From Oxalobacteraceae bacterium (GTDB taxonomy: Bacteria > Pseudomonadota > Gammaproteobacteria > Burkholderiales > Burkholderiaceae_D), in the NCBI GenBank assembly GCA_021299035.1, contig JAJTGD010000017.1, positions 1 to 64,000 on the forward strand: DNA of 64,000 nucleotides, in the 5' to 3' direction. Below, in pieces: positions 13,487 to 34,890 of this stretch. A model generated the notes under the pieces. It was not told where the DNA came from. It saw only the letters and a program-made list of their open reading frames with translations, and did not search any database. The position numbers were made by a program, and so were the translations under genes. How positions within the stretch are numbered: the first letter of the stretch is position 1; each line of letters starts with the position of its first letter.

Positions 13487-13519
13487 TCAAAATACGTTGA
13501 TGAAAACTACGTATTTTGA
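13487..13519. other. 11-bp inverted repeat between the M23 peptidase and a bactofilin
   Basis: TCAAAATACGT (13487-13497) and ACGTATTTTGA (13509-13519) are perfect inverted copies separated by 11 nt. No U tract follows on either strand, so an operator or RNA processing site is more likely than a terminator. Confidence 0.55.
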
Positions 13520-13584
13520 AAATCAATTACTTATATTTATTTCGGAGAAACTGCTTGAGCTTGTCGGTTTTCGATCCGATAAGT

Positions 13585-14783: not shown

Positions 14784-16241
<1,458 letters not shown>

Positions 16242-16305
16242 GGTTTGCGGTGAGGCGTGGGGAGGGAGCGGCGATTGTACTGGATGCGTCAGCCCTTGAG
16301 ATGAC

Positions 16306-16331
16306 AAAAGAAAAGCCCGCCGAAGCGGGCT
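16306..16331 (-). terminator. terminator of the 73-residue membrane protein gene
   Basis: Minus-strand stem AGCCCGC (16331-16325), loop TTCG, GCGGGCT (16320-16314), then TTTCTTTT. It separates the small gene upstream from DUF2863. Confidence 0.85.
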
Positions 16332-16575: not shown

Positions 16576-16647
16576 CTGTTCGTCTCCGGTTGGATACTTG
16601 ATTCAGCTCTACAAGTTAATTTTTGTGTTTGTCTGCACGGCGAAGTC

Positions 16648-16674
16648 GGTGCCAGCCTCAACGCGGCTGGCACC
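16648..16674. other. 10-bp inverted repeat just after acnA
   Basis: GGTGCCAGCC (16648-16657) and GGCTGGCACC (16665-16674) form a perfect stem with a 7-nt loop, 6 nt beyond the acnA stop. No U run follows on the minus strand. It would stabilise the 3' end or pause transcription. Confidence 0.65.
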
Positions 16675-16680
16675 CTTGGT

Positions 16681-19290
16681 TCAAGCTGCCAGAAGTTGAC
16701 GCAACACAAACGGCAAGATGCCGCCGTGACGGTAGTAATCGACTTCAATCGGCGTATCGATTCGCAGTAGTAATTTCACATGCTGGGTCTGGCCATTGGC
16801 ACGATGAATCACCAGTGTCACATTTTGCTGCGGCTTGATATCTTGCTCAAGACCGATCAGATCGAAGCGTTCATCACCCGTTATATTCAGCGATTGCACG
16901 CTATCGCTGCCGATGAACTGCAAGGGCAACACACCCATGCCGACCAGATTAGAGCGGTGGATACGTTCGAAAGAGCGTGCGATAACGGCTTTTACACCGA
17001 GTAGTTGTGTGCCTTTAGCAGCCCAGTCACGCGACGATCCGGTACCGTACTCCTCGCCAGCGAACACCATGGTAGGTACATCATCATGTACGTACTTCAT
17101 GGCGGCGTCGTAGATCGACATCTGTTCGCCGCTTGGCTGATGAATGGTGATGCCGCCTTCAACGCGCGAGCCATCGGCCTTGGTCGGGATCATCAGGTTT
17201 TTGATGCGGACATTGGCGAAGGTGCCGCGCATCATGATTTCATGATTGCCACGACGCGAGCCATACGAGTTGAAGTCTGCTTTCAACACACCATGCTCAA
17301 TCAACCATTTACCTGCAGGGCTGCTGTCTTTGATCGATCCGGCAGGGGAGATGTGATCGGTGGTGATCGAATCGCCAAACACGCCGAGTGCGCGTGCACC
17401 AGCGATGCCGGTGGCAGCCGCTTTGGGTTGCATGGCGAAGTCTTGGAAGAACGGTGGCTCGGCGATATAGGTAGACTTTGGCCAGTTGTAGACCTGACCC
17501 TCGGCCACACCTTGAATCTGCTCCCACAACTTGCCGGGAGCGCCTTTGACGTCGGCATAGTTACGCTTAAACGTGTCTGCGTTCATGGCGAACTTCATGA
17601 GCTTGTTGATCTCTTCCGAGCTTGGCCAGATGTCGCCGATATAAATATCACGGCCCTTGGCATCTTTGCCCAGCGGCTGGGTCATGAGATCAACGGTGAC
17701 ATTACCGGCGATGGCATAGGCCACCACCAGAGGCGGCGAAGCTAGGAAGTTGGCGCGGATGTTTGGATGAATACGCGCTTCGAAATTACGGTTACCCGAC
17801 AACACGGCGGCAGCAACCACATCGTTTTTAACGATGGCCTCGTTGAAGGCCGGGGTCAGATCGCCGGCATTGCCGATGCAGGTGGTGCAACCATAAGCGG
17901 TGACGCCGAAGCCAAGCTCTTCGAGGTAGGGCAACAAGCCAGCACCAGCAGCCAGCAGCACGCTCGGATTAGAGGTATTCGTGCAGGAAGTGATTGCAGC
18001 GATCAGCACATCACCGTTGCGCAGACTGACGCCGTCGCTGGTCGTGTAGCTTGCGTCAAGATCTTCAGGTTTTTTATTGAAGCCATTGTCTGCTACTGGC
18101 TTGGCGAACAAATCTTTGAAGGTGTCTTTGACGTGACCGATTTCGATACGGTCTTGCGGGCGCTTGGGTCCAGCCAGTGACGGCGCGACTTTGGACAGGT
18201 CGAGGCTGAGTTCTTTGCTGTAATCGATCTGCCCTTTTTTCGGAATGCCGAAAAGGTTTTGGGCTTTGAAGTAGGCCTCGAAAGCATCGATCTCGGCTTT
18301 GGTGCGGCCGGTGCCATGGAAGTAATCAATCGTGGCTGCATCGACCGGGAAAAAGCCCATGGTGGCACCGTACTCCGGCGCCATGTTGGCAATGGTGGCG
18401 CGATCGGTGAGCGAGAGTGAGGCTGTGCCTTCACCAAAAAACTCAACAAACTTGCCAACGACTTTTTCTTTGCGCAGCATCTCGGTGATGGTGAGCACCA
18501 GATCGGTCGCGGTAACGCCTTCGCGCAGCACGCCCGTCAGGTTAACGCCGACCACATCTGGCGTGAGGAAGTAGACAGGCTGACCGAGCATACCTGCTTC
18601 AGCCTCGATACCACCAACGCCCCAACCGACCACACCGATGCCGTTAATCATCGTGGTGTGAGAATCGGTGCCGACCAAGGTGTCGGGGTAGTAGACACCG
18701 TTTTTATGGTGGACGCCGCGCGCCAGGTATTCCAAGTTCACCTGATGAACAATGCCAAAGCCCGGTGGCACCACACCGAAGGTGTCAAATGCCTGCATGC
18801 CCCATTTCATGAACTGGTAGCGCTCGTTATTGCGCTGAAACTCGAGTTTCATGTTCAGGTCGAGTGCATTTTTTTCGCGGAAGTGATCGATCTGCACCGA
18901 GTGATCCACCACCAAATCCACAGGTACTAATGGCTCAATATTCTTTGGGTTCTTACCCATCTTCGATGCAACGCCGCGCATTGCAGCCAAGTCGGCCAGC
19001 AACGGTACACCGGTGAAATCCTGTAGTACGACGCGCGCAACAACAAACGGGATCTCGTCGGTGCGGTCTGCTTTGGGTTTCCAGTTGGCCAGCTGGCGTA
19101 CATGGGCTTCGGTGACCTTGTTGCCGTCGCAGTTGCGCAGCACGGATTCGAGCACGATACGAATCGACACCGGGAGACGTTCGATATTCACGCCGAGCGC
19201 TTTTTGTAGGGCAGGGAGTGAGTGAAACTTCCCTTTATGGGAGCCGGAAATTGTGAACTCTTTGAGCGTATCCAGCGGATGGTGCGACAT
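16681..19290 (-). CDS. acnA: aconitate hydratase A with internal 34-residue deletion
   Basis: 869 residues from ATG at 19290 ([12 protein letters not shown]), preceded by AGAGGAGAACAC. It matches AcnA/IRP1-type aconitase over the whole length and should interconvert citrate and isocitrate. The three [4Fe-4S] cysteines are present: C436 (ITSCTNTSN), C468 and C471 (GCTTCIG). The first and second are only 32 residues apart, whereas E. coli AcnA has C435 and C501, 66 apart. The missing 34 residues are the very conserved block after SVLLAAG that includes the KTSLAPGS segment with substrate-binding arginines. The junction is near 17941 and the frame is kept. If real, the enzyme should be inactive. 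Confidence 0.9.
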
Positions 19291-19383
19291 GTGTTCTCCT
19301 CTTTTTCGAAAAGGCTGAAAGCCTGTCAAAGTTAATCCTTGGCGGACCGCAGGCAGCGGACCCTACGCTGCCAACAGTCGCAC

Positions 19384-19713
19384 TCAGCGAACGGTTGGGC
19401 CGCCCGCAATCTTGCAGTCGCTGACGATGGGTTCACCCTTGCTGCCATCGAGCAGCATGGATTTGCTCGGGATGCTGATCCAGATTAGGCGGCTGGCGGG
19501 ATCCTCGAAACGCTGTACCCCGGTGGTCGTACCAACGCGTTGCATCCGGTAGGTTCTGCCACGCCAGATCAGGTCAATCACGCTATCACTGACTACGTCC
19601 CCACCCACAAAAACCGGTTGTGCACGTTCGCACATCAAGTCAGCGGTAGATGAATGAGCCTGCCCAATCCAAAACAAGCAAAGCAACAGCACCAACGAAA
19701 AACGGTTCGGCAT
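19384..19713 (-). CDS. exported MliC-like (lysozyme-inhibitor-like) protein
   Basis: 109 residues with a strong AGGAGG site before the ATG. A signal peptide (about 1-22) ends near AHSSTAD and has no lipobox. The mature part has two cysteines (DLMC near the N-terminus and SDC near the C-terminus) and a small beta pattern, IDLIWRGRTYRMQRV, TGVQRFEDPA, LIWISI, that resembles MliC/PliC periplasmic inhibitors of C-type lysozyme. The usual SGxxY and WxKG core residues are not conserved, so inhibition is uncertain. It lies between acnA and mdh with no operon partner. Confidence 0.55.
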   Translation of the reverse strand: MPNRFSLVLLLCLFWIGQAHSSTADLMCERAQPVFVGGDVVSDSVIDLIWRGRTYRMQRVGTTTGVQRFEDPASRLIWISIPSKSMLLDGSKGEPIVSDCKIAGGPTVR

Positions 19714-19903
19714 ACAACCTCCTGCGGAGTGGGTTGAATCTGAACTGGCGCCGCATTCTGTTGCAGCTGCGCCTTACCCTATGTTTACCGAACCGGATTA
19801 GGACTCGGCAAACCCCTGTTACAACGCATCTTTTACCGCATGGTACCGGCTTGCGGCCGGGAATGACAAAGTAGGGCAGGTTGGTGCTGTGCTATCCGTG
19901 TAT

Positions 19904-20893
19904 TCAGGGCAGCAGATGTTTCACGCCATCGCGTTCTTCTTGCAACTCTTTCAACGTCAGCGCGATACGTTCTTGTGAGAAGGCATCGATGTCCAGCCCC
20001 TGAACAATCTCGTACTCGCCGTTGTTCGTGGTGACTGGGAAGCCGAACATGGTGTCTTTCGGGATGCCATACGAGCCATCAGACGGGATGCCCATCGTGG
20101 TCCATTTGCCGTGCGTGCCCAGCACCCAGTCACGTACGTGGTCAATTGCTGCATTGGCTGCGGATGCAGCAGAAGACAAGCCCCGCGCCTCAATAATCGC
20201 AGCGCCGCGTTTGCCGACGGTTGGCAAGAAAACATCTTTGTTCCATGCATCGTCGTTGATCATTTGCCTCACTGAGTGGCCGTCGATGGTCGCAAAGCGA
20301 TAGTCGGCGTACATAGTGGGCGAGTGATTGCCCCAGACGCAGAGCTTCTCGATCGATGCAACGGGCTTGCCAGTTTTAGTCGCGATCTGCGATAGCGCGC
20401 GGTTGTGATCGAGGCGCAGCATGGCGGTGAAGTTTTTAGCGGGCAGGCTAGGGGCCGACTTCATTGCGATGTAGGCATTCGTGTTGGCCGGATTGCCAAC
20501 CACGAGCACCTTGACATTGCGAGAGGCCACCGCATCCAGCGCTTTGCCCTGTACCGTAAAAATCTGTGCATTCGCTTCCAGCAAATCCTTGCGCTCCATT
20601 CCAGGTCCGCGTGGACGTGCACCGACCAGCAGCGCAACATCAGCGTCTTTGAAGGCGGTCATCGGGTCAGCGTGTGCTGTCATCCCGGCAAGAAGCGGGA
20701 AGGCGCAGTCGTCGACTTCCATCATCACGCCTTTCAGCGCTTTCTGTGCCTTTTCGTCGGGGATCTCGAGCAACTGCAGGATGACGGGCTGGTCCTTGCC
20801 CAGCATGTCGCCATTGGCAATGCGGAACAGCAGGGAATAGCCGATTTGACCCGCGGCGCCAGTGACGGCAACTCGCATGGGAGTTTTTGACAT
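19904..20893 (-). CDS. mdh: malate dehydrogenase
   Basis: 329 residues, the length of the cytosolic-type (type 2) bacterial enzyme. NAD-binding motif GAAGQIG at about 11-17; substrate arginines in [10 protein letters not shown] and LRLDHNRA; catalytic histidine in WGNHSPT; GSYGIP near the C-terminus. It oxidises malate to oxaloacetate. It is transcribed divergently from gntR with a well-formed promoter at 20998-20970 and an adjacent palindrome, so the two genes probably share control. Confidence 0.97.
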
Positions 20894-20969
20894 GGTAGAT
20901 CTCCGGTCTGGTGGATTAAGCGAAACAGCTGCGCGGGCCTAAGGTACAGCACCCGAAAACTTGGTCGCG

Positions 20970-20998
20970 AGTTTAGGGGCGCAATATGATGCTGTCAA
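20970..20998 (-). promoter_or_regulatory. mdh promoter
   Basis: On the minus strand TTGACA (20998-20993), exactly 17 nt, then TAAACT (20975-20970). The -35 is perfect. The palindrome at 21012-21023 begins 14 nt upstream of the -35, a location suited to activation or wrapping rather than direct blocking of mdh. Confidence 0.75.
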
Positions 20999-21004
20999 TC
21001 TACC

Positions 21005-21023
21005 TCTTATATCTTATATAAGA
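21005..21023. promoter_or_regulatory. palindromic operator between mdh and gntR
   Basis: TCTTATATAAGA at 21012-21023 is a perfect 12-bp palindrome, and TCTTATAT is repeated in direct orientation at 21005-21012. For gntR, CTGTCA (20992-20997) and TATATA (21015-21020) have a 17-nt spacer, so the palindrome covers the likely gntR -10. Autorepression by the GntR protein is the simplest reading. Confidence 0.65.
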
Positions 21024-21080
21024 CATCATACTCATTAATCTTCTGGACGTTGGGCAACGTCTGTGGTGAAATGACGCGCA

Positions 21081-21863
21081 ATGAGTCAGACCCTAAACCC
21101 ACCGCTTCCCAGCGTGCCGGCGGCGAGTGCCGGCACCGGTTTGTCATCGCCGACTTTCAGTCCGCTTTATCAGCAGATTAAGTCCCTAATATTGCTAAGT
21201 TTGCAATCAGGTGAGTGGAAGCCGGGTGAGTTGATTCCGAGTGAGGTAGAACTCGCCCTGCGCTACAAAGTCAGCCAGGGCACGGTCAGGAAGGCCATCG
21301 ACGAGCTTTCTGCGGAGAATCTGGTGGTGCGGCGGCAGGGCAAGGGGACGTTTGTCGCCACGCATCATGAGGCGAAGGTCCAGTTTCGCTTTCTGAAGCT
21401 AATGCCCGATAACGGCGACGCGCATCAAGCTGAAAACCGCATTATTGAGGTAAAGCGCCTGCGCGGTCCCGCCGAAGTGGCACGCGCGCTCGATATCAAG
21501 GCGGGCGATTCGGTGGTGTACATCAAGCGCGTGCAATCTTTCGATAGCGCTCCCATCATTCTGGAAGAGATTTGGCTGCCAGGTGTTCTGTTCAAGGGGC
21601 TGACTGCGGAGAGGCTAGCAGAGTACAAAGGCCCGATGTACGGCCTGTTCGAGACAGAGTTCGGTACGCAAATGATTCATGCAACCGAGAAGCTGAAGGC
21701 TGCGCTGGCTGATGATTCAGTGGCTGCAACGCTGCTTGTGGCTCGAGGCACCCCGGTGCTCAGTATTGAGCGTGTCGCGTTTACCTATGGTGAGCGCCCG
21801 GTTGAGTTGCGCAGAGCAATCTACCTGACCGCTCAGCACCACTACCATAACGAACTGAGCTAG
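21081..21863 (+). CDS. GntR-family (HutC type) regulator of the TCA cluster
   Basis: 260 residues. N-terminal winged helix (about 25-95: PLYQQIKSLIL, GELIPSEVELALRYKVSQGTV, RRQGKGTFV) followed by a UTRA effector-binding domain (about 110-250), the HutC subfamily layout. Its position between divergent mdh and the sdhCDAB-gltA genes is typical of betaproteobacteria and points to control of TCA genes by a small carboxylate, but the ligand cannot be read from the sequence. Its own promoter appears to overlap the palindrome at 21012. Confidence 0.88.
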   Translation: MSQTLNPPLPSVPAASAGTGLSSPTFSPLYQQIKSLILLSLQSGEWKPGELIPSEVELALRYKVSQGTVRKAIDELSAENLVVRRQGKGTFVATHHEAKVQFRFLKLMPDNGDAHQAENRIIEVKRLRGPAEVARALDIKAGDSVVYIKRVQSFDSAPIILEEIWLPGVLFKGLTAERLAEYKGPMYGLFETEFGTQMIHATEKLKAALADDSVAATLLVARGTPVLSIERVAFTYGERPVELRRAIYLTAQHHYHNELS

Positions 21864-22005
21864 ACCCGCAATTAATGATGTTAACAAGGTGACAAAGACC
21901 ATTTCGGCGACAGATGGGCGCTGAACTGTCGACACAGATAGAATTCGGAAAGTTCACGAAAACACGCTGAAACAGATTCGGCCAGAAACGCTGGAGAAAA
22001 CACCG

Positions 22006-22410
22006 ATGTCCGACGCCGCCGCACGCAAACGCTTCACCAATATCCACGTCACGCAGATTATTCGTTATCGGCTACCAGCTTCCGGGATGGTGTCGATTTT
22101 GCATCGAATCAGTGGCGCACTGATGTTCCTGTTACTTCCTTTCGTGCTGTTCTTGTTCGACAAATCGATTACTTCCGAAATCTCTTTCGAGTTTTTCAGA
22201 GGCTATGTGAGCCACCCGCTGGTCAAGCTGGCGATACTGGCACTGAGCTGGGCCTACCTGCATCATTTCATCGCAGGTATTCGGCACCTGGTGATGGATA
22301 TGCACATCGGTCTGTCCAAGCACGAGACTGTTAAATCCGCATGGGTAGTGCTCATCATCAGCGGTGTCCTGACCTTGCTGGTGGCAATGAAACTGTTCGG
22401 GGTGATCTGA
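22006..22410 (+). CDS. sdhC: succinate dehydrogenase cytochrome b556 subunit
   Basis: 134 residues with three transmembrane helices (about 30-52, 66-90, 108-132). The family motif near the first helix (ASGMVSILHRISGALMF) carries the quinone-site Ser/His/Arg, and the second helix segment AYLHHFIAGIRHL supplies the haem b histidine. GGAG precedes the ATG. It anchors complex II and passes electrons to ubiquinone. The stop is 1 nt before sdhD. Confidence 0.95.
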   Translation: MSDAAARKRFTNIHVTQIIRYRLPASGMVSILHRISGALMFLLLPFVLFLFDKSITSEISFEFFRGYVSHPLVKLAILALSWAYLHHFIAGIRHLVMDMHIGLSKHETVKSAWVVLIISGVLTLLVAMKLFGVI

Positions 22411-22411
22411 T

Positions 22412-22777
22412 ATGGCAGACAATAATATCGGTGCAAAGCGCGTTGTCGTCGGCGCTCACTACGGGCTGCGCGATTGGCTCGCGCAACGTGTCACTGCAGT
22501 CGTGATGGCGGTGTTTACGGTGGTGACGCTGGTCTTGTTTTTAGGTGCGTCGGATTTTAGTTATGAAGGGTGGGCCGGGCTGTTTGCACAGCAGTGGTTC
22601 AAGATTCTGGCATTCGTCACCTTCCTTGCTATGTATTACCACGTCTGGGTTGGCATTCGAGACATTTGGATGGACTACATCAAGCCAGTCGGTATTCGAC
22701 TTACGCTGCAAGTATTCACCATCCTCTGGCTGCTCGCCTGTGCCGGCTGGACCGTACAGATTCTTTGGAGAGTGTGA
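22412..22777 (+). CDS. sdhD: succinate dehydrogenase membrane anchor subunit
   Basis: 121 residues, three membrane helices (about 22-45, 58-80, 92-117). The N-terminal RVVVGAHYGLRDWLAQR and the helix segment MYYHVWVGIRDIWMDY are typical of proteobacterial SdhD, with the haem-side histidine in YHVWVG. It pairs with SdhC to bind haem b and the quinone. It ends 2 nt before the sdhA start. Confidence 0.95.
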   Translation: MADNNIGAKRVVVGAHYGLRDWLAQRVTAVVMAVFTVVTLVLFLGASDFSYEGWAGLFAQQWFKILAFVTFLAMYYHVWVGIRDIWMDYIKPVGIRLTLQVFTILWLLACAGWTVQILWRV

Positions 22778-22779
22778 TC

Positions 22780-24555
22780 GTGACTGCCATTAAATCTTCC
22801 ATCGCGCGTCGTCGTTTCGATGCGGTTGTTATCGGCGCAGGTGGTTCCGGCATGCGCGCTTCGCTGCAACTGGCTGAGGCCGGTCTGTCGGTGGCTGTGC
22901 TGTCGAAGGTATTCCCGACACGCTCTCACACGGTTGCTGCTCAGGGTGGTGTCGGTGCTGCGCTCGGCAATATGTCAGAGGACAGCTGGTACTGGCATAT
23001 GTTCGATACCGTCAAGGGTTCCGATTATCTCGGCGACCAAGACGCGATCGAATTCATGTGCCGCGAGGCGCCCAAGGTCGTGTACGAGATGGAGCACTTT
23101 GGCATGCCGTTCGACCGCAATCCGGACGGCACCATCTATCAGCGTCCGTTCGGCGGTCACACCGCAAATTTTGGCGAGAAACCAGTGCAACGCGCCTGTG
23201 CGGCTGCCGATCGTACTGGTCACGCCATGCTGCACACGCTGTATCAGCGCAATGTGCGTGCAAAAACGCATTTCTTCGTTGAGTGGATGGCGATCGATCT
23301 GATTCGCAATCAGCAAGGCGATGTGGTTGGTGTGGTGGCGTTGGAAATGGAAACCGGTGAGCTGGCCATCCTGGAGGCAAAAACCACGGTATTTGCAACC
23401 GGCGGTGCTGGTCGTATCTGGGCCGCATCGACCAATGCGTTCATCAATACCGGCGACGGTATGGGCATGGCCGCACGTGCTGGCTTGCCGCTGGAAGATA
23501 TGGAGTTCTGGCAGTTTCACCCGACCGGTGTTGCCGGTGCGGGTGTGCTGATTACCGAAGGCGTTCGCGGTGAGGGCGGTATTCTCATCAACAGCAACGG
23601 CGAGCGATTCATGGAACGCTACGCGCCGACGCTGAAAGATCTGGCGCCACGTGATTTCGTGTCGCGCTCGATGGACCAAGAGATCAAAGAAGGTCGTGGT
23701 TGCGGTCCGAACAAAGACCATGTGTTGCTCGATCTGCGTCATATAGGTGCCGACACTATTCGCAAACGTCTGCCTTCGATTTTGGAGATCGGTCACAAGT
23801 TTGCAAACGTCGACGCGACCAAAGAGCCCATTCCAGTCGTGCCGACCATTCATTACCAGATGGGTGGCATCCCGACCAATATCCATGGTCAGGTGGTCGC
23901 GCCGAAAAACGGTACCCAAGAGATCGTCAATGGGCTGTATGCGATTGGTGAATGTGCTTGCGTCTCGGTGCATGGCGCCAACCGTCTTGGTACCAACTCA
24001 TTGCTCGACCTGTTGGTGTTTGGTCGTGCAGCGGGTAACCATATCGTGGCGTCTAAGTTGAAAGAGCAAAGCCATCACGATCTACCAGCCGATGGTGCTG
24101 ACATGGCGCTCGAACGTTTGGCGCATTTGGAATCGTCCAATGGCAGCGAGCGCGTGCAGACGGTTGCCAGCGACATTCGCAAAGTGATGCAGCGACACTG
24201 TGGTGTGTTCAGGTCTCAGGCGCTGCTCGATGAAGGCGTGGCGATGATCGCTGAGCTCGACGAGCGCCGTAAGCATGTCTCGTTTAAAGACAAGTCGAAA
24301 GTGTTCAATACTGCGCGCGTCGAAGCGCTCGAACTGGATAACCTCATCGAGACTGCGAAGGCCACGATGTACTCTGCAGCCGCTCGCCATGAGTCGCGCG
24401 GTGCACACGCGCACAGCGACTATCCACAGCGCGATGATGAGCAATGGATGAAACACACCTTGTGGTTCTCGGAGGGCAATCGTCTCGACTACAAGCCGGT
24501 GGTCACCAAACCACTGACGGTAGAGACTTTCAAGCCCAAGGCCCGTACTTTCTGA
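22780..24555 (+). CDS. sdhA: succinate dehydrogenase flavoprotein subunit
   Basis: 591 residues from GTG at 22780, with GGAG at 22767-22770. A GTG at 22774 is too close to that site, and an open frame further upstream lies inside sdhD. FAD-binding GAGGSGM (near residue 20), the histidine for covalent FAD in RSHTVAAQGG, the active-site HPTG region and the capping domain are all present at normal length. It oxidises succinate to fumarate. It needs SdhE (encoded at 25191) for flavinylation and SdhB for electron exit, but sdhB next door is broken. Confidence 0.97.
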   Translation: MTAIKSSIARRRFDAVVIGAGGSGMRASLQLAEAGLSVAVLSKVFPTRSHTVAAQGGVGAALGNMSEDSWYWHMFDTVKGSDYLGDQDAIEFMCREAPKVVYEMEHFGMPFDRNPDGTIYQRPFGGHTANFGEKPVQRACAAADRTGHAMLHTLYQRNVRAKTHFFVEWMAIDLIRNQQGDVVGVVALEMETGELAILEAKTTVFATGGAGRIWAASTNAFINTGDGMGMAARAGLPLEDMEFWQFHPTGVAGAGVLITEGVRGEGGILINSNGERFMERYAPTLKDLAPRDFVSRSMDQEIKEGRGCGPNKDHVLLDLRHIGADTIRKRLPSILEIGHKFANVDATKEPIPVVPTIHYQMGGIPTNIHGQVVAPKNGTQEIVNGLYAIGECACVSVHGANRLGTNSLLDLLVFGRAAGNHIVASKLKEQSHHDLPADGADMALERLAHLESSNGSERVQTVASDIRKVMQRHCGVFRSQALLDEGVAMIAELDERRKHVSFKDKSKVFNTARVEALELDNLIETAKATMYSAAARHESRGAHAHSDYPQRDDEQWMKHTLWFSEGNRLDYKPVVTKPLTVETFKPKARTF

Positions 24556-24571
24556 TCGCAGGACATTGAAT

Positions 24572-25188
24572 ATGCCACGCACAGTCAAATTTCAGATCTA
24601 CCGCTACGATCCCGACAAGGATGCCAAGCCCTACATGCAGGATCTGACGGTCGAGTTGGACGATACCGACAAGATGCTGCTTGATGCGCTACAGCGTATC
24701 AAGGCTGATGTCGATGATTCTCTCGCGCTGCGGCGCTCCTGCCGCGAAGGTGTGTGCGGCTCGGACGCGATGAACATCAACGGCAAGAACGGGCTCGCTT
24801 GTACCACTAACCTTACCACTCGATCAAACCGTTCCTGATCAACGATACGCCGCCGCCCGAGCGTGAGCGTCTTCAGACGCCAGAGGAGCGTGAGGAACTT
24901 GACGGTTTGTACGAATGCATTCTGTGCGCCTGCTGCTCGACCTCATGCCCATCGTTCTGGTGGAATCCGGATAAATTCGTCGGGCCAGCGGGTCTGTTAC
25001 AAGCCTACCGCTTTATCGCGGATAGCCGCGATCAGGCCACCGGTGAGCGCCTCGATAATCTGGAAGATCCTTACCGTCTGTTCCGCTGTCACTCGATCAT
25101 GAACTGCGTCGATGTCTGCCCGAAGGGTTTGAATCCCAACCAGGCGATCGGCAAGATCAAGGAGCTGATGGTTCGTCGCGCTGTTTGA
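24572..25188 (+). pseudogene. sdhB: succinate dehydrogenase iron-sulfur subunit, disrupted by internal deletion and frameshift
   Basis: The first part (24572 to about 24813) encodes the N-terminal ferredoxin domain with all four [2Fe-2S] cysteines (CREGVCGSDAM ... LAC). The frame then stops at 24836-24838. The second part resumes in another frame at about 24814 ([11 protein letters not shown]) and carries the [4Fe-4S]/[3Fe-4S] domain (CILCACC, then [14 protein letters not shown]) to the normal end. The last [2Fe-2S] cysteine (24800) and first C-terminal cysteine (24916) are 116 nt apart, where the family has about 210-222. So about 95-105 nt, the linker with the PLPGLPV and DLIVDM segments, is absent. 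TACCACT occurs on both sides of the junction (24802-24808, 24814-24820). As it stands no functional SdhB can be made. Confidence 0.9.
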
Positions 25189-25190
25189 GT

Positions 25191-25463
25191 ATGGCGGACG
25201 TAAGGCATCAGGATGACCCAACCCGGCGCGCCCGACTCCGTTGGCGCAGTCGTCGTGGCTTGCTCGAAAATGATCTGATCCTGACCCGCTTCCTCGATGC
25301 GCATGAAATCGAGCTGACCGATGACGAGGTCGATGCGCTCACCCGGTTGCTTGAGCTTTCCGACAATGAGCTATTGGATCTGCTACTGGGTAGAACCGAA
25401 CCCGCTGACATGCTCGCGGCACCCAACGTGAGTGCCTTGCTAAGTAAACTACGCCAGGCCTAG
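25191..25463 (+). CDS. sdhE: succinate dehydrogenase flavinylation factor SdhE
   Basis: 90 residues from ATG at 25191, 2 nt after the sdhB stop. The RRGLLENDLIL segment carries the R-G-x-x-E-x-D motif of SdhE/YgfY (DUF339), the small five-helix protein that helps attach FAD to SdhA. Its place directly after sdhB in the sdh-gltA operon is typical for betaproteobacteria. Confidence 0.94.
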   Translation: MADVRHQDDPTRRARLRWRSRRGLLENDLILTRFLDAHEIELTDDEVDALTRLLELSDNELLDLLLGRTEPADMLAAPNVSALLSKLRQA

Positions 25464-25521
25464 CGAATGAATGACTTGTTCTTGTAATCGTTGACATATT
25501 TTTTGAGTTGAAGGTAACGCC

Positions 25522-26832
25522 ATGAAACAGTCCGATGTGAAAGCAACGCTCTCATTCTCCGATGGTTCGCCATCGGTTGAATTCCCCGTGTATGCCGGCT
25601 CGATTGGGCCAGACGTTCTGGACATCCGTAAGCTATACGGTGCGACGGGGATGTTCACCTACGACCCCGGATTCATGTCGACCGCTGCTTGTAATTCATC
25701 GATCACCTACATCGATGGCGATAAGGGCGAGCTGCTTTATCGCGGTTACCCGATCGAACAACTTGCGGTGAATTGCGACTTCCTGGAAACCTGCCACTTG
25801 CTGCTGCATGGCGAGCTGCCGAGCGCGACGCAGAAAACGGAGTTTGTCTCCACGGTGACGAATCACACCATGGTGCATGAGCAGATGCAGTTTTTCTTCC
25901 GTGGGTTCCGGCGCGATGCTCACCCGATGTCGGTGCTGGTCGGTACGGTGGGTGCGCTGGCGTCGTTCTACCACGACTCGCTCGACATCAATGATCCCAC
26001 GCACCGTGATGTATCGGCGATTCGCTTAGTAGCCAAGATGCCGACACTGGTGGCGATGGCGTACAAGTACTCGGTCGGTCAGCCGTTTGTCTATCCGCGT
26101 AATGACCTCTCTTTCAGCGCAAACTTCATGCGAATGATGTTTGCGACCCCGGCAGCGGATTACAAAGTCAATGATGTGTTGGTACGCGCGCTAGACCGTA
26201 TCCTGATCTTGCATGCTGACCATGAGCAGAATGCCTCAACATCGACCGTCCGACTGGCGGGCTCCTCGGGTGCGAATCCGTTTGCTTGTATCGCCGCGGG
26301 CATTGCCTGCTTGTGGGGCCCGGCACATGGTGGCGCGAATGAAGCGGCGCTTCAGATGCTGCAAGACATTCAGCGTGAGGGTGGTGTCGAGAAAATTGGC
26401 GAGTTCGTCGCCAAGGTCAAGGACAAGAACTCGAATGTGAAGCTGATGGGCTTCGGTCACCGCGTCTACAAGAACTACGATCCGCGTGCGAAGTTGATGC
26501 GCGAGACCTGCCACGAAGTGCTGAATGAACTGGGTCTGCAAAATGATCCTTTGTTCAAGCTGGCGATGGCGCTCGAGAAGATTGCATTGGAAGACGAATA
26601 CTTCGTGTCGCGCAAGCTGTACCCGAACGTCGACTTCTACTCCGGCATTGTGCAGTCGGCGCTCGGTATTCCGGTGTCACTGTTCACGGGTATTTTTGCG
26701 ATGGCCCGTACCGTCGGCTGGATCGCGCAGTGGAAGGAAATGATCTCCGATCCGGAGCAAAAGATCGGTCGCCCGCGCCAATTATTTGTCGGTTCGCCAC
26801 GTCGCGACGTGCCGCCGATGGCCAACCGGTAA
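25522..26832 (+). CDS. gltA: citrate synthase
   Basis: 436 residues, type II hexameric citrate synthase size, with no internal loss. N-terminal small beta domain (about 1-50) and then the helical core with the catalytic histidines in [12 protein letters not shown] and [13 protein letters not shown] and a later aspartate. It condenses acetyl-CoA with oxaloacetate. GAAGG precedes the ATG. A TTGACA at 25490-25495 has no matching -10, so transcription is probably from the sdh promoter. Confidence 0.97.
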
Positions 26833-26840
26833 CTGAAGTG

Positions 26841-26869
26841 TTGTCATTTTGCGCCCTGCTTGTGATACG
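26841..26869 (+). promoter_or_regulatory. possible odhA promoter
   Basis: TTGTCA (26841-26846), 17 nt, GATACG preceded by TGT (26864-26869). The -35 is good but the -10 is poor. The 190-nt gap after gltA makes a separate promoter likely. Confidence 0.35.
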
Positions 26870-26994
26870 CTGCGGGGGTAGGTGACTTAGTTGTGTTTTA
26901 CAAAGCGGGCATCCCGGCGAGGGTCTGCTCGTTTGAAATGCAATCTGCAACGCGGTGTGGCCGCAGTGTGGATGGTTGATGAACCCGCTGATTA

Positions 26995-27011
26995 CTTCGC
27001 GAAGCGCGAAG
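26995..27011 (+). promoter_or_regulatory. hairpin next to the odhA ribosome-binding site
   Basis: CTTCGCG (26995-27001) and CGCGAAG (27005-27011) form a perfect 7-bp stem with an AAG loop, ending directly before AAAGG (27012-27016), the odhA ribosome site. It could tune translation. Confidence 0.45.
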
Positions 27012-27025
27012 AAAGGTGAGCAGTG

Positions 27026-29800
27026 ATGATGCAGCAATATTTCTCCAACTCCTATCTGTTTGGAGGGAATGCCCCGTACGTGGAAGAAGCTGTCGACGGC
27101 TCCGACCGCCCTGATGTGCCCCATGCGAGCGTTATTGCTTCGTTTGCCGAGCGCGCCAAACGTGGACCGATTCGTACGGTTACCGCTTCGGCCGATGCCG
27201 AGATGGGGCGCAAACGGGTTTCGGCTACGCAGTTGATCGCGGCCTATCGCTTCTTGGGTACGCAGTGGGCCAATCTGGACCCGCTACAGCGCCAGGAGCG
27301 ACCGACGATTCCCGAGCTCGAGCCGCCGTTTTACGGATTTAGCGACGCCGACCTCGATACCGTCTTCAACATCAGTAATACCTATTTTGGCCCCGAGTCT
27401 GCCTCGCTCAGAGATCTGCTACAGGCGCTGCGCGATACCTATTGCCGCTCGATTGGCGCCGAGTTCCAGTACATCACCGACCCCACCCAAAAACGCTGGA
27501 TGCAAGAGCGGTTGGAGTCAACCCGCGCCACCGGTACCTTCACCGTGGAAGAGAAGCAGCACATCCTCGACCGTATCACGGCCGCCGAAGGCTTGGAACG
27601 CTATCTCCACACCAAATATGTCGGCCAGAAGCGTTTCTCGCTCGAGGGCGGTGAAAGCTTTATCGCCTCGCTCGACGCGTTGATTCAACGCGCAGGAAGC
27701 CAGGGCGTGCAAGAGATCGTGATCGGCATGGCACACCGTGGCCGTTTGAATGTGCTGGTGAATATTCTCGGCAAGATGCCGCACGACCTGTTTGCTGAAT
27801 TCGAGGGCAAGCACGCAGATGATTTGCCGGCGGGTGATGTGAAATACCACCAGGGCTTTTCCTCCGATGTGTCGACACCCGGCGGACCAGTCCACCTGTC
27901 TCTGGCGTTCAACCCGTCGCATCTTGAAATCGTGAATCCGGTGGTCGAGGGTTCAGCCAAGGCGCGTATGGACAGGCGCGGTGACAGCGAGGGTAATCAG
28001 GTACTCGCTGTTCAAGTCCACGGCGATGCTGCTTTCGCTGGCCAAGGCGTTGTGATGGAGACGCTCAACCTCGCGCAGACGCGTGGCTACGGCACTGGCG
28101 GTACCGTACACATCGTCATCAATAACCAGATTGGTTTCACTACCTCGGATCCACGTGACTCGCGCTCGACCTTGTACTGCTCGGATGTGGTGAAGATGAT
28201 CGAGGCACCGGTGCTGCATGTGAATGGTGATGATCCTGAGGCGGTCGTCTTTGCGACCCAAATCGCGTTGGATTACCGGATGCAGTTCCACAAAGATGTG
28301 GTGGTTGACATCGTCTGCTTCCGTAAACTCGGTCACAACGAGCAGGACACCCCAGCGCTGACACAGCCGCTGATGTACAAAAAAATCGCGCAGCATCCGG
28401 GGACCCGCAAGCTCTACGCTGACAAGTTAATGGCGCAGGCCGTGATTGGTGCTCAGGATGGCGACCAGATGGTCAAAGACTACCGGCAGGCGATGGATGA
28501 GGGCAAGCAGACGGTTGACCCTGTTATCTCAAACTACAAGAATAAATTCATCGTCGACTGGATGCCTTTCCTGAACCGGAAATGGACCGACGCTGCTGAC
28601 ACCTCGGTACCTGCAGCTGAGCTCAAACGGCTTTCTGAGCGCATCACGACTGTTCCTGAAAATTTCAAGTTACACCCCTTGGTAGAAAAAGTCCTAGCTG
28701 ATCGCGCTGCGATGGGTCGTGGAGAGGTTAATCTCGACTGGGGTATGGGTGAGCATCTAGCGTTTGCATCATTGGTGGCCTCCGGCTACGCAGTACGAAT
28801 CACAGGCCAGGATGCAGGGCGCGGCACCTTTACGCACCGGCACTCTGTGTTGCACGACCAAAATCGTGAGAAATGGGATGCGGGTAACTACATCCCGCTG
28901 CAGCATGTTTCGGATCAGCAGGCACCTTTCACCGTGATTGACTCGGTCTTGTCGGAAGAGGCGGTGTTGGGCTTCGAGTACGGCTACTCCACGTCTGAGC
29001 CAAATACGCTCACGATTTGGGAAGCGCAGTTTGGCGATTTCGCGAACGGCGCGCAGGTAGTGATTGATCAGTTCATCAGCTCCGGTGAAGTTAAATGGGG
29101 TCGCGCCTCCGGCTTGGTGATGATGCTGCCACACGGCTATGAAGGGCAGGGGCCAGAGCACTCCTCGGCACGGATTGAGCGCTTCCTGCAATTGGCTGCA
29201 GATAACAATATGCAACTGGTACAGCCGACCTCGGCAGCGCAGATCTTCCATCTGTTGCGACGTCAAATGATTCGCTTGTTCCGCAAGCCGCTCGTGATTT
29301 TCACACCGAAGTCACTCCTGCGGAACAAGGATGCTGGCTCACCGCTGTCCGAATTGGTGAAGGGCTCGTTCCACACCGTGATCGGTGATGTGGACGACAA
29401 GCTTGATCCGAAAAAGGTCAAGCGTGTGCTGGCTTGCTCGGGCAAGGTCTACTACGACTTAGTCAATGCGCGGAAAGAGCGTAACTCTACTGACGTTGCC
29501 ATTATTCGTATCGAGCAGCTCTATCCCTTCCCGCACAAAGCGCTGGCCACTGAACTGGCCAAATTCCCGAATTTTTCAGAACTGGTTTGGGTGCAGGATG
29601 AACCTCAGAATCAGGGCGCTTGGTTCCAGATTCAACACAACATCCTCGAGAACCTGTCTGACGGGCAGAAGCTTGCGTATTCAGGTCGTCCGGCCTCCGC
29701 TTCGCCTGCGGTGGGCTATTACGACAAACACTACGCGCAGCAAAAAACCTTGATCGATACCGCGTTCTCGAAACTGAAAGGTTTTGTAATCACCAAGTAA
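27026..29800 (+). CDS. odhA: 2-oxoglutarate dehydrogenase E1 component with N-terminal internal deletion
   Basis: 924 residues from ATG at 27026; GTG 27023 and ATG 27029 are alternatives. The thiamine diphosphate region (IVIGMAHRGRLNVL ... HGDAAFAGQG ... NNQIGFTTS) and the transketolase-like C-terminal half are complete, so the catalytic core looks intact. It decarboxylates 2-oxoglutarate and hands succinyl to E2. The N-terminus starts normally (MMQQYFSNSYLFGGNAPYVEE) but jumps straight to AVDGSDRPDVPH. The conserved LYEAYL..P..V...WR..F block, about 27 residues, is missing at about 27090. In the family this segment is implicated in holding E1 to the E2 core. The frame is kept. Confidence 0.92.
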   Translation: MMQQYFSNSYLFGGNAPYVEEAVDGSDRPDVPHASVIASFAERAKRGPIRTVTASADAEMGRKRVSATQLIAAYRFLGTQWANLDPLQRQERPTIPELEPPFYGFSDADLDTVFNISNTYFGPESASLRDLLQALRDTYCRSIGAEFQYITDPTQKRWMQERLESTRATGTFTVEEKQHILDRITAAEGLERYLHTKYVGQKRFSLEGGESFIASLDALIQRAGSQGVQEIVIGMAHRGRLNVLVNILGKMPHDLFAEFEGKHADDLPAGDVKYHQGFSSDVSTPGGPVHLSLAFNPSHLEIVNPVVEGSAKARMDRRGDSEGNQVLAVQVHGDAAFAGQGVVMETLNLAQTRGYGTGGTVHIVINNQIGFTTSDPRDSRSTLYCSDVVKMIEAPVLHVNGDDPEAVVFATQIALDYRMQFHKDVVVDIVCFRKLGHNEQDTPALTQPLMYKKIAQHPGTRKLYADKLMAQAVIGAQDGDQMVKDYRQAMDEGKQTVDPVISNYKNKFIVDWMPFLNRKWTDAADTSVPAAELKRLSERITTVPENFKLHPLVEKVLADRAAMGRGEVNLDWGMGEHLAFASLVASGYAVRITGQDAGRGTFTHRHSVLHDQNREKWDAGNYIPLQHVSDQQAPFTVIDSVLSEEAVLGFEYGYSTSEPNTLTIWEAQFGDFANGAQVVIDQFISSGEVKWGRASGLVMMLPHGYEGQGPEHSSARIERFLQLAADNNMQLVQPTSAAQIFHLLRRQMIRLFRKPLVIFTPKSLLRNKDAGSPLSELVKGSFHTVIGDVDDKLDPKKVKRVLACSGKVYYDLVNARKERNSTDVAIIRIEQLYPFPHKALATELAKFPNFSELVWVQDEPQNQGAWFQIQHNILENLSDGQKLAYSGRPASASPAVGYYDKHYAQQKTLIDTAFSKLKGFVITK

Positions 29801-29860
29801 TGACCCCGCAGGTGGGTGGAAGCCGCCGATCTGCGTGACAAACCCGAAACGGAGTATGTA

Positions 29861-31114
29861 ATGGCCATCATCGAAGTCCATGTACCGCAACTATCTGAAT
29901 CTGTCGCCGAGGCGACGCTACTGAACTGGCACAAAAAGGTGGGCGAAGCCGTCGCCCGCGATGAAAACCTGATTGATATCGAGACCGACAAAGTCGTACT
30001 CGAGTTACCCGCGCCTGCGCAGGGTGTGGTCGTTGAAATTGTTAAGCCAGACGGCAGCACCGTGGTGTCGGGCGAAGTCATCGCCAGAATCGATACCGAA
30101 GCAACTGCCTCAGCCGGCACGTCTTCGAGCACGCCCGCGAGCGCGCCTGCAGCGGCAAGTTCGGCGCCTAGCCCCGCACCCGCTGCCGCCAAGCCACCTG
30201 CGTCATCCGGCGCGATTGCGATGCCCGCCGCAGCCAAGATGCTGTCCGAGAATCAGATGTCGGCATCTGCAGTAGCCGGTACCGGCAAGGATGGCCGCGT
30301 CACCAAAGGCGATGTGATCCAAGCACTGGCACAGCCAAAGCTGAGCGCAGCACCTGCAGCAGCGCGTCCTTTGCTGCCTGAGGTGCCGGCACAAGTCGGT
30401 CTGGATTTGGGCGATCGTCCTGAGCAACGCGTACCCATGAGCCGCTTGCGTGCACGCATCGCCGAGCGCCTGCTTGAGTCGCAGTCGACCAACGCGATCC
30501 TCACTACGTTTAATGAAGTGAACATGCAGCCGGTGATGGATTTGCGGAACAAGTACAAAGACAAGTTCGAGAAGGAGCATGGCGTGAAACTCGGTTTCAT
30601 GTCGTTCTTTGTGAAAGCGGCTGTGGCTGCGCTAAAAAAATATCCGATTCTGAACTCCTCAGTGGATGGTAACGATATTGTCTACCACGGCTACTTCGAT
30701 ATTGGTATTGCAGTCGGCTCACCGCGCGGTTTGGTCGTACCTATCTTGCGAAATGTTGATCAGATGTCGATTGCAGATATCGAAAAAAAGATTGGTGAGT
30801 TTGGTACCAAGGCCAAAGACGGCAAGCTCACACTGGAGGAACTCTCCGGCGGTACTTTCTCGATTTCCAATGGCGGTGTATTTGGTTCGATGCTCTCCAC
30901 GCCGATCATCAACCCGCCGCAATCAGCAATTCTCGGGGTGCACGCCACCAAGGAGCGCGCGGTGGTTGAGGATGGACAAATCGTTATCCGTCCCATGAAC
31001 TACCTTGCGATGTCATACGACCATCGCATTATCGATGGCCGTGAGGCGGTACTGGGTTTAGTAGCAATGAAAGAGGCACTGGAAGATCCAGCGCGTCTGC
31101 TGCTCGATCTGTAA
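29861..31114 (+). CDS. odhB: dihydrolipoyllysine succinyltransferase (E2 of 2-oxoglutarate dehydrogenase)
   Basis: 417 residues from ATG at 29861, GGAG 6 nt upstream. Lipoyl domain (1-78) with the modified lysine K44 in [11 protein letters not shown]; an Ala/Pro/Ser-rich hinge (about 78-120); the peripheral subunit-binding domain (about 120-160, [13 protein letters not shown]); and the catalytic acyltransferase domain with SYDHRIIDG at the C-terminus. It transfers succinyl to CoA. The operon with odhA and lpd gives the full complex. Confidence 0.96.
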
Positions 31115-31123
31115 GGAGCGGCC

Positions 31124-32548
31124 ATGGCAAAGCATTTCGATGTGGTCGTGATCGGCGGCGGCCCGGGTGGATACATCGCTGCGATTCGCGCGGCCCAGCT
31201 TGGATTGTCGGCGGTCTGTATTGACGAGTGGCAGAACGCTAAAGGCGGCCCAGCACTCGGCGGCACTTGCACTAATGTGGGCTGTATTCCATCCAAAGCC
31301 ATGCTGCAATCTTCCGAACATTTCGAGCATGTGCAGCATGGGCTTACCGAGCATGGTGTTGAGGTCAAAGGTGTGAAGCTCAACCTCGGACAGATGCTTG
31401 GGCGCAAGGATGGCGTCGTGAAGCAAAACAATGACGGTATTCAGTACCTTTTCAAGAAGAATAAGGTGGCTTTCCTGCACGGTCGCGCATCTTTCGTGAA
31501 AGCGGATGCCTCGGGTTACGAGATTGCCATTGCAGCACCCGCAAATGAATCAGTGACGGGTAAGCATGTCATCGTGGCCACTGGCTCGAACCCGCGTGCT
31601 TTGCCACAAGCACCTTTCGACGAACAGCAAATTCTGTCGAATACAGGCGCACTGGCACTTGATGCTGTACCAAAAAAGCTGGGTGTGATCGGTGCAGGCG
31701 TTATTGGTCTTGAGATGGGCAGTGTATGGCGCCGTCTCGGTGCCGAAGTGACGATCTTGGAGGCATTGCCGACCTTCCTGGGTGCGGCGGACGAGTCGAT
31801 TGCAAACGAGGCGCATAAGCTGTTCACCCAACAGGGTTTGATCATCAAGATGGGCGTCAAGATCGGTGAGATCAAAACGGGTAAATCGGTTCGTATTGAC
31901 TATAGCGACGCTAGCGGTACTGCACACACGCTCGACGTTGATAAGCTGATCGTGTCGATCGGTCGAGTACCCAATACGGTTGGCTTGAATTCCGAGGCGA
32001 TTGGTTTGAAGCTCGATGAGCGGGGCTTTATTGTGGTTGATGACCACTGCAAGACCAGTTTGCCCAATGTCTGGGCGGTGGGTGATGTGGTGCGCGGGCC
32101 GATGCTGGCGCACAAGGCCGAGGAGGAGGGGGTCGCGGTTGCCGAGCGCATCGCTGGTCAGCACGGCCACGTCAACTTCGACACCATTCCTTGGGTGATT
32201 TATACCGCCCCCGAGATCGCGTGGGTGGGTAAAACTGAGCAGCAACTCAAAGCGTCTGGTATTGCCTACAAGTCCGGTAGTTTCCCTTTCATGGCGAATG
32301 GTCGCGCTCGCGCGCTTGGTGATACCTCCGGCTTGGTGAAGTTCCTTGCTGATGCGCATACCGACGAGATACTTGGCGTGCACATCGTTGGCCCGATGGC
32401 TTCCGAGTTGATTTCCGAGGCCGTGGTGGCGATGGAGTTTCGTGCCTCGGCGGAAGACATCGCGCGTATTTGCCATGCCCATCCCACATTATCCGAGGCG
32501 ACCAAAGAGGCCGCGCTGGCAGTGGATAAGCGGGCCCTGAACTTCTAA
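31124..32548 (+). CDS. lpdA: dihydrolipoyl dehydrogenase (E3)
   Basis: 474 residues; AAGGAG precedes the ATG. FAD motif [10 protein letters not shown] (11-20), redox-active disulfide C49/C54 in [18 protein letters not shown] motif [10 protein letters not shown] (about 185-194) and the C-terminal HAHPTLSEA with the catalytic His-Glu pair. It reoxidises the lipoyl group of OdhB with NAD+. It lies 9 nt after odhB. Confidence 0.96.
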
Positions 32549-32552
32549 GTCA

Positions 32553-33038
32553 ATGCCCGGGCGCACTGGCGAACAATGGCGAGCGAGCCCCAGGGGGCCA
32601 AGGATCGCTGCGTTGAGCATGCTGGTCACACTGTTGGTCAGTTGTGCCAGCCAGCCGTCGCCACCGGCAGGACAACTCCAGGTGTTGTCGACAGCCCAGG
32701 GCAAGCCGCTTACTGGTGCGGCTTGCGTCGTGAGCAATCTATCTGGCAGCTGGAATGTACAGACACCTGCAACCGTCATGGTGGGCGATCCGAATGGCGA
32801 CCTGCGTGTGGTCTGTGAGCACCCTGGTTACCGTAACTCCGAGGTGATTTATCGCATGTCAGGCGGCGGGGTCAGCAACAGCGGAACGCGCGTTAATGTT
32901 GGCGTGGGTGGCGGCAGCTTTGGTAGCGCAAGCGGTGTGGGCGTATCGATGGGTATCGGTTTCCCCTTGGGCACGGTACGGCAGCGCTACCCTGGACAAC
33001 TCACGGTGGATTTAACGCCACTTAGTGACGCGCGATGA
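32553..33038 (+). CDS. hypothetical lipoprotein
   Basis: 161 residues. A basic N-terminus and hydrophobic stretch end in a lipobox LLVSC (Cys at about residue 31), so it should be a lipid-anchored envelope protein. The mature part contains a glycine-rich segment (about 105-145, GVSNSGTRVNVGVGGGSFG). No family is recognised. The start at 32553 is kept because a shorter start at 32619 would lose the positive charges of the signal peptide. It lies 4 nt after lpd and overlaps zapE by 4 nt, so it is probably in the same operon. Confidence 0.7.
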   Translation: MPGRTGEQWRASPRGPRIAALSMLVTLLVSCASQPSPPAGQLQVLSTAQGKPLTGAACVVSNLSGSWNVQTPATVMVGDPNGDLRVVCEHPGYRNSEVIYRMSGGGVSNSGTRVNVGVGGGSFGSASGVGVSMGIGFPLGTVRQRYPGQLTVDLTPLSDAR

Positions 33039-34147
33039 ATGTCACCGAGTACTACGAGCTTTCCCTAGACGAGCGCGGCTACAGCGCAGATCCCTCGCAG
33101 CGCGCCGCAGTCGAGCGGCTACAGAGTTTATATGACGAATGGGTAGCCTATCGTTCCAAACGCTCGACACGTCTCACCAAACTACTCCGGCATCCTGATA
33201 TCCCACGTGGCGTCTACCTCTGGGGCGGCGTCGGCCGTGGCAAGTCGTTTCTGATGGATTGCTTTCATGCGGTCGTACCCGTACAGCGCAAGACGCGCGT
33301 GCATTTTCATGAGTTTATGCGCGAAGTGCACCATGCACTGGACGAGCAAAAAGATGTGGAAGATCCCTTGCTGGTAGTCGCCGAGCACATTGCGCAGCGC
33401 TACCGGCTCATTTGTTTTGATGAGTTCCATGTCTCCGACATCGCTGATGCGATGATTCTGTATAACCTTTTGCAGCCCTTATTTGATCGCGGCGTATCTT
33501 TTGTCATGACTTCCAATTACGCGCCCGATGCGCTGTATCCGGATGGCTTGCATCGTGATCGGATGCTGCCGGCAATCGCACTGATCAAAGACAAGCTTGA
33601 CGTGTTAAATGTCGATGCCGGAACAGACTACCGCAAGCGCATCCTCGAGCAGGTCTCGGCGTATCACGCGCCATTGGGTACGGCCTCGGCAGAGGCGCTG
33701 GAGCAGGCCTTTACCAATCTCGCCGGCGCTGCTGAAGATGCCCCCAAGATCAGGATAGAATCGCGAGATGTGCGTTGCGTGCGGCGTGCTGGTGGAGTGG
33801 CCTGGTTTGACTTTGCCACGCTGTGCGGTACCGCGCGCTCGCAAAATGATTATCTCGAGATTGCAAACCGATTTCATACGGTGATTTTGTCGGATGTGCC
33901 GAAGATGTCGGCCGAGATGGCCTCTGAGGCGCGTCGATTCACTTGGCTGATCGACGTGTTGTATGACCACCGGATCAAATTATTGATATCCGCAGAAGTA
34001 GCGCCGGATTTGCTCTTCACCGAGGGAAGTTTTGCAACGGAGTTTCAGCGAGCGGTGTCGCGTATCGTCGAGATGCAATCGCGCGAATATAAAGAGAGCG
34101 AGCGCCGTACATCGGCTGTCGTGATGGGCAGAGAAACTGCTGATTGA
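33035..34147 (+). CDS. zapE: cell division ATPase ZapE (AFG1-like)
   Basis: 370 residues. The Walker A motif GGVGRGKSFLMD lies at about 62-73, Walker B LICFDEFHVSDIADA at about 127-141, and the later RRFTWLIDVLYDHR region is typical of AFG1/ZapE AAA-type ATPases. In E. coli ZapE acts on FtsZ late in division and under low oxygen. ATGA overlap with the preceding lipoprotein gene implies coupled translation. Its location at the end of the odh operon is common in betaproteobacteria. Confidence 0.92.
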   Translation: MNVTEYYELSLDERGYSADPSQRAAVERLQSLYDEWVAYRSKRSTRLTKLLRHPDIPRGVYLWGGVGRGKSFLMDCFHAVVPVQRKTRVHFHEFMREVHHALDEQKDVEDPLLVVAEHIAQRYRLICFDEFHVSDIADAMILYNLLQPLFDRGVSFVMTSNYAPDALYPDGLHRDRMLPAIALIKDKLDVLNVDAGTDYRKRILEQVSAYHAPLGTASAEALEQAFTNLAGAAEDAPKIRIESRDVRCVRRAGGVAWFDFATLCGTARSQNDYLEIANRFHTVILSDVPKMSAEMASEARRFTWLIDVLYDHRIKLLISAEVAPDLLFTEGSFATEFQRAVSRIVEMQSREYKESERRTSAVVMGRETAD

Positions 34148-34689
34148 ACGAAACGGGATATTCTTTGGCTCTGAGTGGAAAGTTTGCAGCGCCGATGCTT
34201 GGCGCAGCCTTGTTGCTGAGCTGCTGGGGCGCGGGCGCGCAGCTGATCACGTCCCCTGGCGCCGCTGAACAGGCGCTGGCAACGCAGTTTCCAGCGCAGT
34301 CGATCGACTCGGTTGAGCGGGCTAATGCCGCGCTTGCTTTGGTGCCGGTTGCCCGCGCCGAAATTTCTCTCCGAATTGCTGGTCAACGTGCGAAGTGCCT
34401 CGATAATTTTTTTACCTCTTCTTGTCTGAGTGACCTTCGCGAGAGCGAACGACGTGCTACCAAAGCGGTCCGGCGTGTCGAAGTTGAGGCAAACGCCTTG
34501 TTAAGACGTGAGCGGGCCGCTGAACGAGACCGCGCGGTTGCGGATCGTGAGCGTCGTGCTGCCGAGCAGCGCGACAAATCCATCTCGATCACCGGTTCTG
34601 CGCGTAACGCTGATAAGGCTGAAGCAGGTGATCCTGTAACTACTACGCCGCCCAACGAGTCAATACCAGTCGATGAGCCTCGACCCTGA
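34144..34689 (+). CDS. conserved exported protein with Arg/Glu-rich coiled coil
   Basis: 181 residues from TTG at 34144, overlapping the zapE stop. A signal peptide (about 12-32) ends near GAGAQ. The mature part has two cysteines in KCLDNFFTSSCLSD and then a long charged helix (about 100-145, rich in Arg/Glu/Ala) before a Pro-rich tail. A protein of this kind follows zapE in other betaproteobacteria. The function is unknown; the cysteine pair could form a disulfide in the periplasm. Confidence 0.65.
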   Translation: MNETGYSLALSGKFAAPMLGAALLLSCWGAGAQLITSPGAAEQALATQFPAQSIDSVERANAALALVPVARAEISLRIAGQRAKCLDNFFTSSCLSDLRESERRATKAVRRVEVEANALLRRERAAERDRAVADRERRAAEQRDKSISITGSARNADKAEAGDPVTTTPPNESIPVDEPRP

Positions 34690-34876
34690 GCAGCTACGGG
34701 AACGCATCCTTGCGTTGGAGATCGAGCACCGCGATCTCGACGAGGCGATCGCGCGCTTGGCAGACCTGCCGACGCGCGATGACTTGCTCCTCACGCGTCT
34801 GAAGAAACGTAAGCTGCAGCTGAAGGACCAGGTGCTGCAGCTAAAGATGTTATTGGTACCTGATATTCCTGCCTGA
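34673..34876 (+). CDS. DUF465 (YdcH-like) small coiled-coil protein
   Basis: 67 residues, overlapping the previous gene by 17 nt. A single helical hairpin rich in Leu, Glu and Arg with the family pattern LEIEHRDLDEAIARL and LKKRKLQLKDQVLQL. Members are small cytosolic proteins of unknown function. Confidence 0.85.
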   Translation: MSLDPEQLRERILALEIEHRDLDEAIARLADLPTRDDLLLTRLKKRKLQLKDQVLQLKMLLVPDIPA

Positions 34877-34890
34877 CTATCTACCGTATT

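Follow-up and report, generated by a model that had tools for sequence, protein, structure and literature searches.

The gene for the iron-sulfur subunit of succinate dehydrogenase (sdhB, 24572–25188) is assembled with exactly 94 nt absent between positions 24813 and 24814, a gap that breaks the reading frame and removes 31 residues and that, on the sequence data at hand, most likely represents a local assembly error in a metagenome-type draft genome. We favor this explanation because the gap is not alone, with clean gaps in acnA and sucA nearby, and because the remaining parts of sdhB carry no sign of decay and the bin contains a second copy of the locus that is probably foreign. The same three observations speak against the claim of the earlier note that sdhB of the organism is broken, and they point to the outcome, an error in assembly, that the note had itself named as fatal to that claim. 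The stretch of DNA analyzed here (the window) comprises 64,000 nt of one contig (G000:C48:1-64000) of a 2.58-Mb draft, which consists of 80 contigs and is estimated to be 94.9% complete with 1.5% contamination. From the number of contigs, the completeness, the probable foreign contig, and the related named records, which are metagenome-assembled genomes (MAGs), we infer that G000 is a metagenome draft.

The assembled sequence aligns collinearly with that of congeners on both sides of the junction, through 24813 and then from 24814 onward, with 94 nt lying between these positions in the congeners. The ATG of sdhB is located at 24572 and its frame ends at a stop codon at 24836–24838, whereas the rest of the gene is in another frame, and there is no single open reading frame of the about 236 codons expected of a functional SdhB. 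The 5′ part, encoding the [2Fe-2S] half (24572–24813, plus strand), comprises 80 whole codons collinear with the closest congener, G011, and covers positions 1–79 of the 107 positions of the Fer2_3 ([2Fe-2S]) profile, compared with 1–106 in the second copy of the gene in the bin (see below); the 31 absent residues would complete this domain. The 3′ part, encoding the Fe-S dicluster half (24814–25188, plus strand), comprises 124 codons plus the stop, matches positions 107–222 of the 222 of TIGR00384, and contains the C-terminal 4Fe-4S dicluster in full (Fer4_17, 1–61 of 61). Both halves are clearly SdhB (TIGR00384/NF004616) and the sdhCDAB order is kept, but the window copy differs from this family in lacking the 94 nt and the continuity of the frame in its middle. 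The neighboring sdhC, sdhD, and sdhA (22006–24555, plus strand) and gltA (25522–26832, plus strand) are open and gap-free.

These results bear out the earlier note in that the assembled sdhB contains a frameshifting gap, which leaves it 94 nt shorter than in all 17 other congeners that gave a match, and in that the cluster cysteines are split over two frames, with codons at 24740, 24755, and 24800 in the first frame and 8 codons (24916–25117) in the frame ending at 25188. Measured between codon starts, the last [2Fe-2S] cysteine (24800) and the first C-terminal cysteine (24916) are 116 nt apart, as the note had stated; the normal range that it gave, about 210–222 nt, needs to be narrowed to 210 nt, the spacing in G011 and in 72 of 81 loci in a protein pattern search, in which the other 9 yielded no pattern match.

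The comparison within the genus covered 21 genomes, G000 itself included. The 94 nt are present in 17 of 17 other congeners with an sdhB match, including G011 (92–96% identical), with the 94-nt difference recomputed for 7 of them and the match in G002 lying on a contig that ends soon after the gap site. The 3 of the 20 other genomes that gave no sdhB match (G007, G017, and G018) are 75–88% complete. The genomes searched yielded no second representative of the same species. In a tblastn search of 80 named loci with the G011 proteins, sdhB gave 72 uninterrupted matches, none irregular, and 8 loci were unmatched. For acnA, 70 loci were clean, 8 unmatched, and 2 irregular (L114 and L134, with split matches rather than clean gaps); for sucA, 46 were clean, 33 unmatched, and 1 irregular (L075). 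The 3 irregular loci are all titled MAG. By a count of titles, 38 of the 80 named loci are titled MAG or uncultured; the same applies to all 15 named loci nearest by the neighboring regulator gene (L071–L085), several of whose titles name ponds. The plasmid collection yielded 81 records, 80 of them at 60–80% identity.

The heptamer TACCACT, which the earlier note had described as a repeat flanking the junction, is indeed present at 24802–24808 and 24814–24820 on the plus strand, but it is no footprint of a deletion. Because G011 has both copies at homologous places, as unrelated codons in different frames, and both are still in the window, the heptamer is native sequence that bears no trace of the event. 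The left copy ends 5 bases before the junction, and TACCACT occurs 3 times in the window, where 2.5 occurrences are expected by chance. We rejected repeat-mediated slippage, since a slip would leave one copy and two native copies remain. The repeat near the junction is a coincidence between native codons. At the junction itself, we found zero bases of microhomology on either side.

Two further gaps of the same clean kind, overlooked in the earlier note, emerged when the window was aligned to 7 congeners and to the second copy of the locus, with protein matches in agreement. In acnA (about 16681–19290, minus strand), 102 nt (34 residues; 100–102 nt by BLAST edges) are absent in frame between 17943 and 17944, and positions 363–395 of the Pfam Aconitase profile are skipped. 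This gap falls between the TSCTNTSN and CTTCIGN motifs. In sucA (about 27026–29800, plus strand), 81 nt (27 residues; 81–82 nt by edges) are absent in frame between 27088 and 27089, near the N-terminus. A stretch of 9.1 kb contains all 3 gaps (102, 94, and 81 nt), and in each case the flanks are collinear with no inserted bases. No microhomology was found at the acnA and sucA junctions with the placement used, and another placement of the acnA gap shares one base; as the lack of microhomology at all 3 junctions has a probability of about 0.2 by chance (hand estimate), it has no discriminating power. Among the congeners aligned, the draft of another species (L075/G003) is the exception at sucA, with its own comparable gap of 26 residues, which overlaps that of the window. 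Directly upstream of sucA, at 26938–27022, is a SucA RNA motif (RF01070, 63.5 bits), and the first sucA codons look strongly conserved at the DNA level among congeners.

Against the 7 congeners, each covering 13–44 kb of the window, gaps inside genes were confined to the 3 sites and one other position, 53579, close to the end of hflX. This fourth gap appears only against G003 and G015 and is not specific to the window, because G004 and G011 align across it. Against G011, no other genic gaps were found in 30000–49990, 44012–59109, and 59964–64000 of the window, in the pieces of 1–16331 covered by G011 contigs, or, elsewhere in the bin, in C60:1-20000 and C1:1-16347; C25:1-20000 gave mainly short matches and carries no weight here. 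There are no runs of N in the window, and a single ambiguous base was present in one other stretch of the same genome that was checked. The clustering of the 3 gaps in one locus is suggestive, not overwhelming. Outside genes, there is a length difference of 143 nt before sucA. Beside a tRNA at about 3.6 kb it is about 1.1 kb shorter than G011, and beside another at 59030–59110 (59.1 kb) about 150 nt shorter, both differences lying outside protein genes. A match to a Betaproteobacteria toxic small RNA (RF02278, 58.2 bits) is located at 11588–11650 on the minus strand.

A search for a second sdhB, which the earlier note had called for, found one in the bin, although it appears to come from another species. 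It lies on contig C46 (L036, G000:C46:1-12823), which is 12,823 bp long and carries most of the locus in intact form, including the 94 nt of sdhB, in the order acnA-mdh-gntR-sdhCDAB-sdhE-gltA, the same order and orientation as at about 14.8–26.65 kb of the window. The match to the window stops inside gltA, at the end of C46, and the first 691 bases of the contig gave short matches only. In a tree of sdhA-sdhB-gltA DNA, C46 joined G012, G013, and G020 (100/100; 87–88% identity), whereas the window joined G011 (100/100; 94% identity), and gene by gene, as well as in 2 intergenic stretches, the sequence nearest to C46 is that of G012 or G013. That C46 falls among other species of the genus points to a mixed sample and to misbinning, the contig probably belonging to another species that was sampled together with G000. 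The tetranucleotide composition of C46 falls inside the range seen in the bin, but composition fails to separate congeners. A family-wide search with part of C46, in which only 2 other genomes of the genus were sampled, found nothing above 80% identity outside the bin. The bin contains one copy of sucA, with no second one found. Two other aconitase-family genes are present in the bin, one on C64 that is LeuC-sized and one on C51, of 877 residues, that is AcnD-like; these names reflect a reading of length and sequence and not a family call. Taken at face value, the assembly thus describes a bin with no intact SdhB or AcnA outside C46 and no full-length SucA, which counts in favor of an assembly error.

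The assembled parts of sdhB differ from those of G011 at 41 of 204 codons, and all differences are synonymous (11 in the 5′ part and 30 in the 3′ part). The corresponding numbers of synonymous and nonsynonymous codon differences are 63 and 6 for sdhA, 65 and 8 for gltA, 255 and 14 for acnA, and 298 and 38 for sucA after its junction. Relative to G011, sdhB thus gives no sign of relaxed selection, although a very recent break would look alike. Assuming that about half of the sdhB differences arose on the branch of the window (branch lengths 0.030 and 0.028) and that neutral change yields about 3 nonsynonymous differences per synonymous one, the lack of nonsynonymous differences would date a real break to approximately the final 5% of the branch leading from the split with G011 to the window (a rough hand estimate). 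Identity to G011 is patchy across 16600–30093, reaching 99% in sdhC-D and 97% in the first half of sdhA, with 84–90% in acnA-mdh-gntR and about 86–87% in sucA; it is 95% in 30000–49990 of the window. Such a pattern suggests either that closely related species have recombined or that one of the 2 drafts is a mixed assembly. A chimeric join at the sdhB junction is not supported, since the identity to G011, although variable across the locus, has no sharp step at 24813.

If the gaps were real, a free-living freshwater Oxalobacteraceae lineage would just have lost working aconitase A, succinate dehydrogenase, and full-length 2-oxoglutarate dehydrogenase E1 through 3 separate small deletions in one locus, leaving it with a broken TCA cycle or a newly acquired congener block. 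We consider such loss unlikely even when its two versions are taken together. In one of them, itself improbable, C46 is resident, its TCA-cycle block having been acquired from a congener, and the redundant resident acnA, sdhB, and sucA are being lost. The presence in the bin of a second acnA-mdh-gntR-sdhCDAB-sdhE-gltA block, the uninterrupted counterparts on C46 of both damaged acnA and damaged sdhB, and a composition of C46 inside the range of the bin fit this version. However, C46 lies closest to G012/G013 in its genes and in the 2 intergenic stretches alike and never joins G000-type sequence within its 12.8 kb, no second sucA was found in the bin, and the compositional agreement loses its weight where congeners are not separated by composition. 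Furthermore, a second sdhB match, a partial one, was seen only in G009 among the 17 other matched congeners, and sdhB shows no sign of relaxed selection.

The other version, in which sdhB suffered a genuine deletion very recently, with loss of complex II, hits on acnA and sucA, and an incomplete oxidative TCA cycle, is hard to credit. It matches the assembled sequence as it stands, with continuous flanks and every gap exact, and acnA, sdhB, and sucA all belong to one pathway. Three separate losses of 81–102 nt without other broken frames are unlike ordinary gene decay, and here no other frame among the genes of the locus is broken, with sdhC, sdhD, sdhA, and gltA still open. With 0 of the 41 differing sdhB codons nonsynonymous, there would be room for a break only in about the final 5% of the branch, by the rough estimate above. 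A real bacterial pseudogene formed by a small deletion shares with the window copy a frame broken relative to intact orthologues, but the window copy differs in its lack of relaxed selection and in the 2 sister gaps of similar size in the locus. The ten papers listed, of 23 found, in a literature search for broken bacterial sdhB mostly concern human tumors; one of them deals with E. coli cultures (PMC7858067). There, sdhB mutations are described as selected, in parallel, during long-term starvation, one of them being listed as a substitution, so that real changes in sdhB are not absurd (PMC7858067). Finally, that a programmed frameshift or a two-part protein yields a functional SdhB is scarcely conceivable: both halves are conserved at the residue level, but the residues that complete Fer2_3 are absent from both frames, on which ground we rejected this possibility, and not one of the 72 named loci that carry the gene has it split. 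The earlier note was right that a programmed frameshift could not restore the missing about 30 residues.

Under an assembly error, contig ends would have been abutted across short unassembled stretches, possibly through a scaffold gap that was closed wrongly or stripped of its Ns, and a co-sampled congener, represented by C46, may have confused assembly and binning at the locus. By k-mers shared among congeners (k = 21, 31, and 41, flanks included), the sdhB and sucA sites rank at 0.89–0.97 and the acnA site at 0.43 or less; because the latter ranks low, shared k-mers fit only in part as a trigger of misassembly. Metagenome drafts are described as limited by gaps, local assembly errors, and contamination, and skipping curation as propagating incorrect protein-coding sequences (Chen et al. 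2020, PMC7111523). The present case would resemble the errors described there, namely wrong coding sequence at local joins, scaffolding gaps, and contamination by foreign fragments, but those errors were diagnosed from reads, whereas the present case is read from assembled sequence, and the main text of that paper has no match for “deletion” or “frameshift” (PMC7111523).

If the gaps are artefacts, they caution that what appears to be gene loss in a draft genome may be a clean gap of about 80–100 nt in a conserved gene, and it is then helpful to check neighboring genes for sister gaps and the bin for a copy of the locus from another organism; the sampled organism itself would keep ordinary acnA, sdhB, and sucA and an ordinary complex II. 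If they are real, the locus would offer a rare snapshot of ongoing loss or replacement of the TCA cycle.
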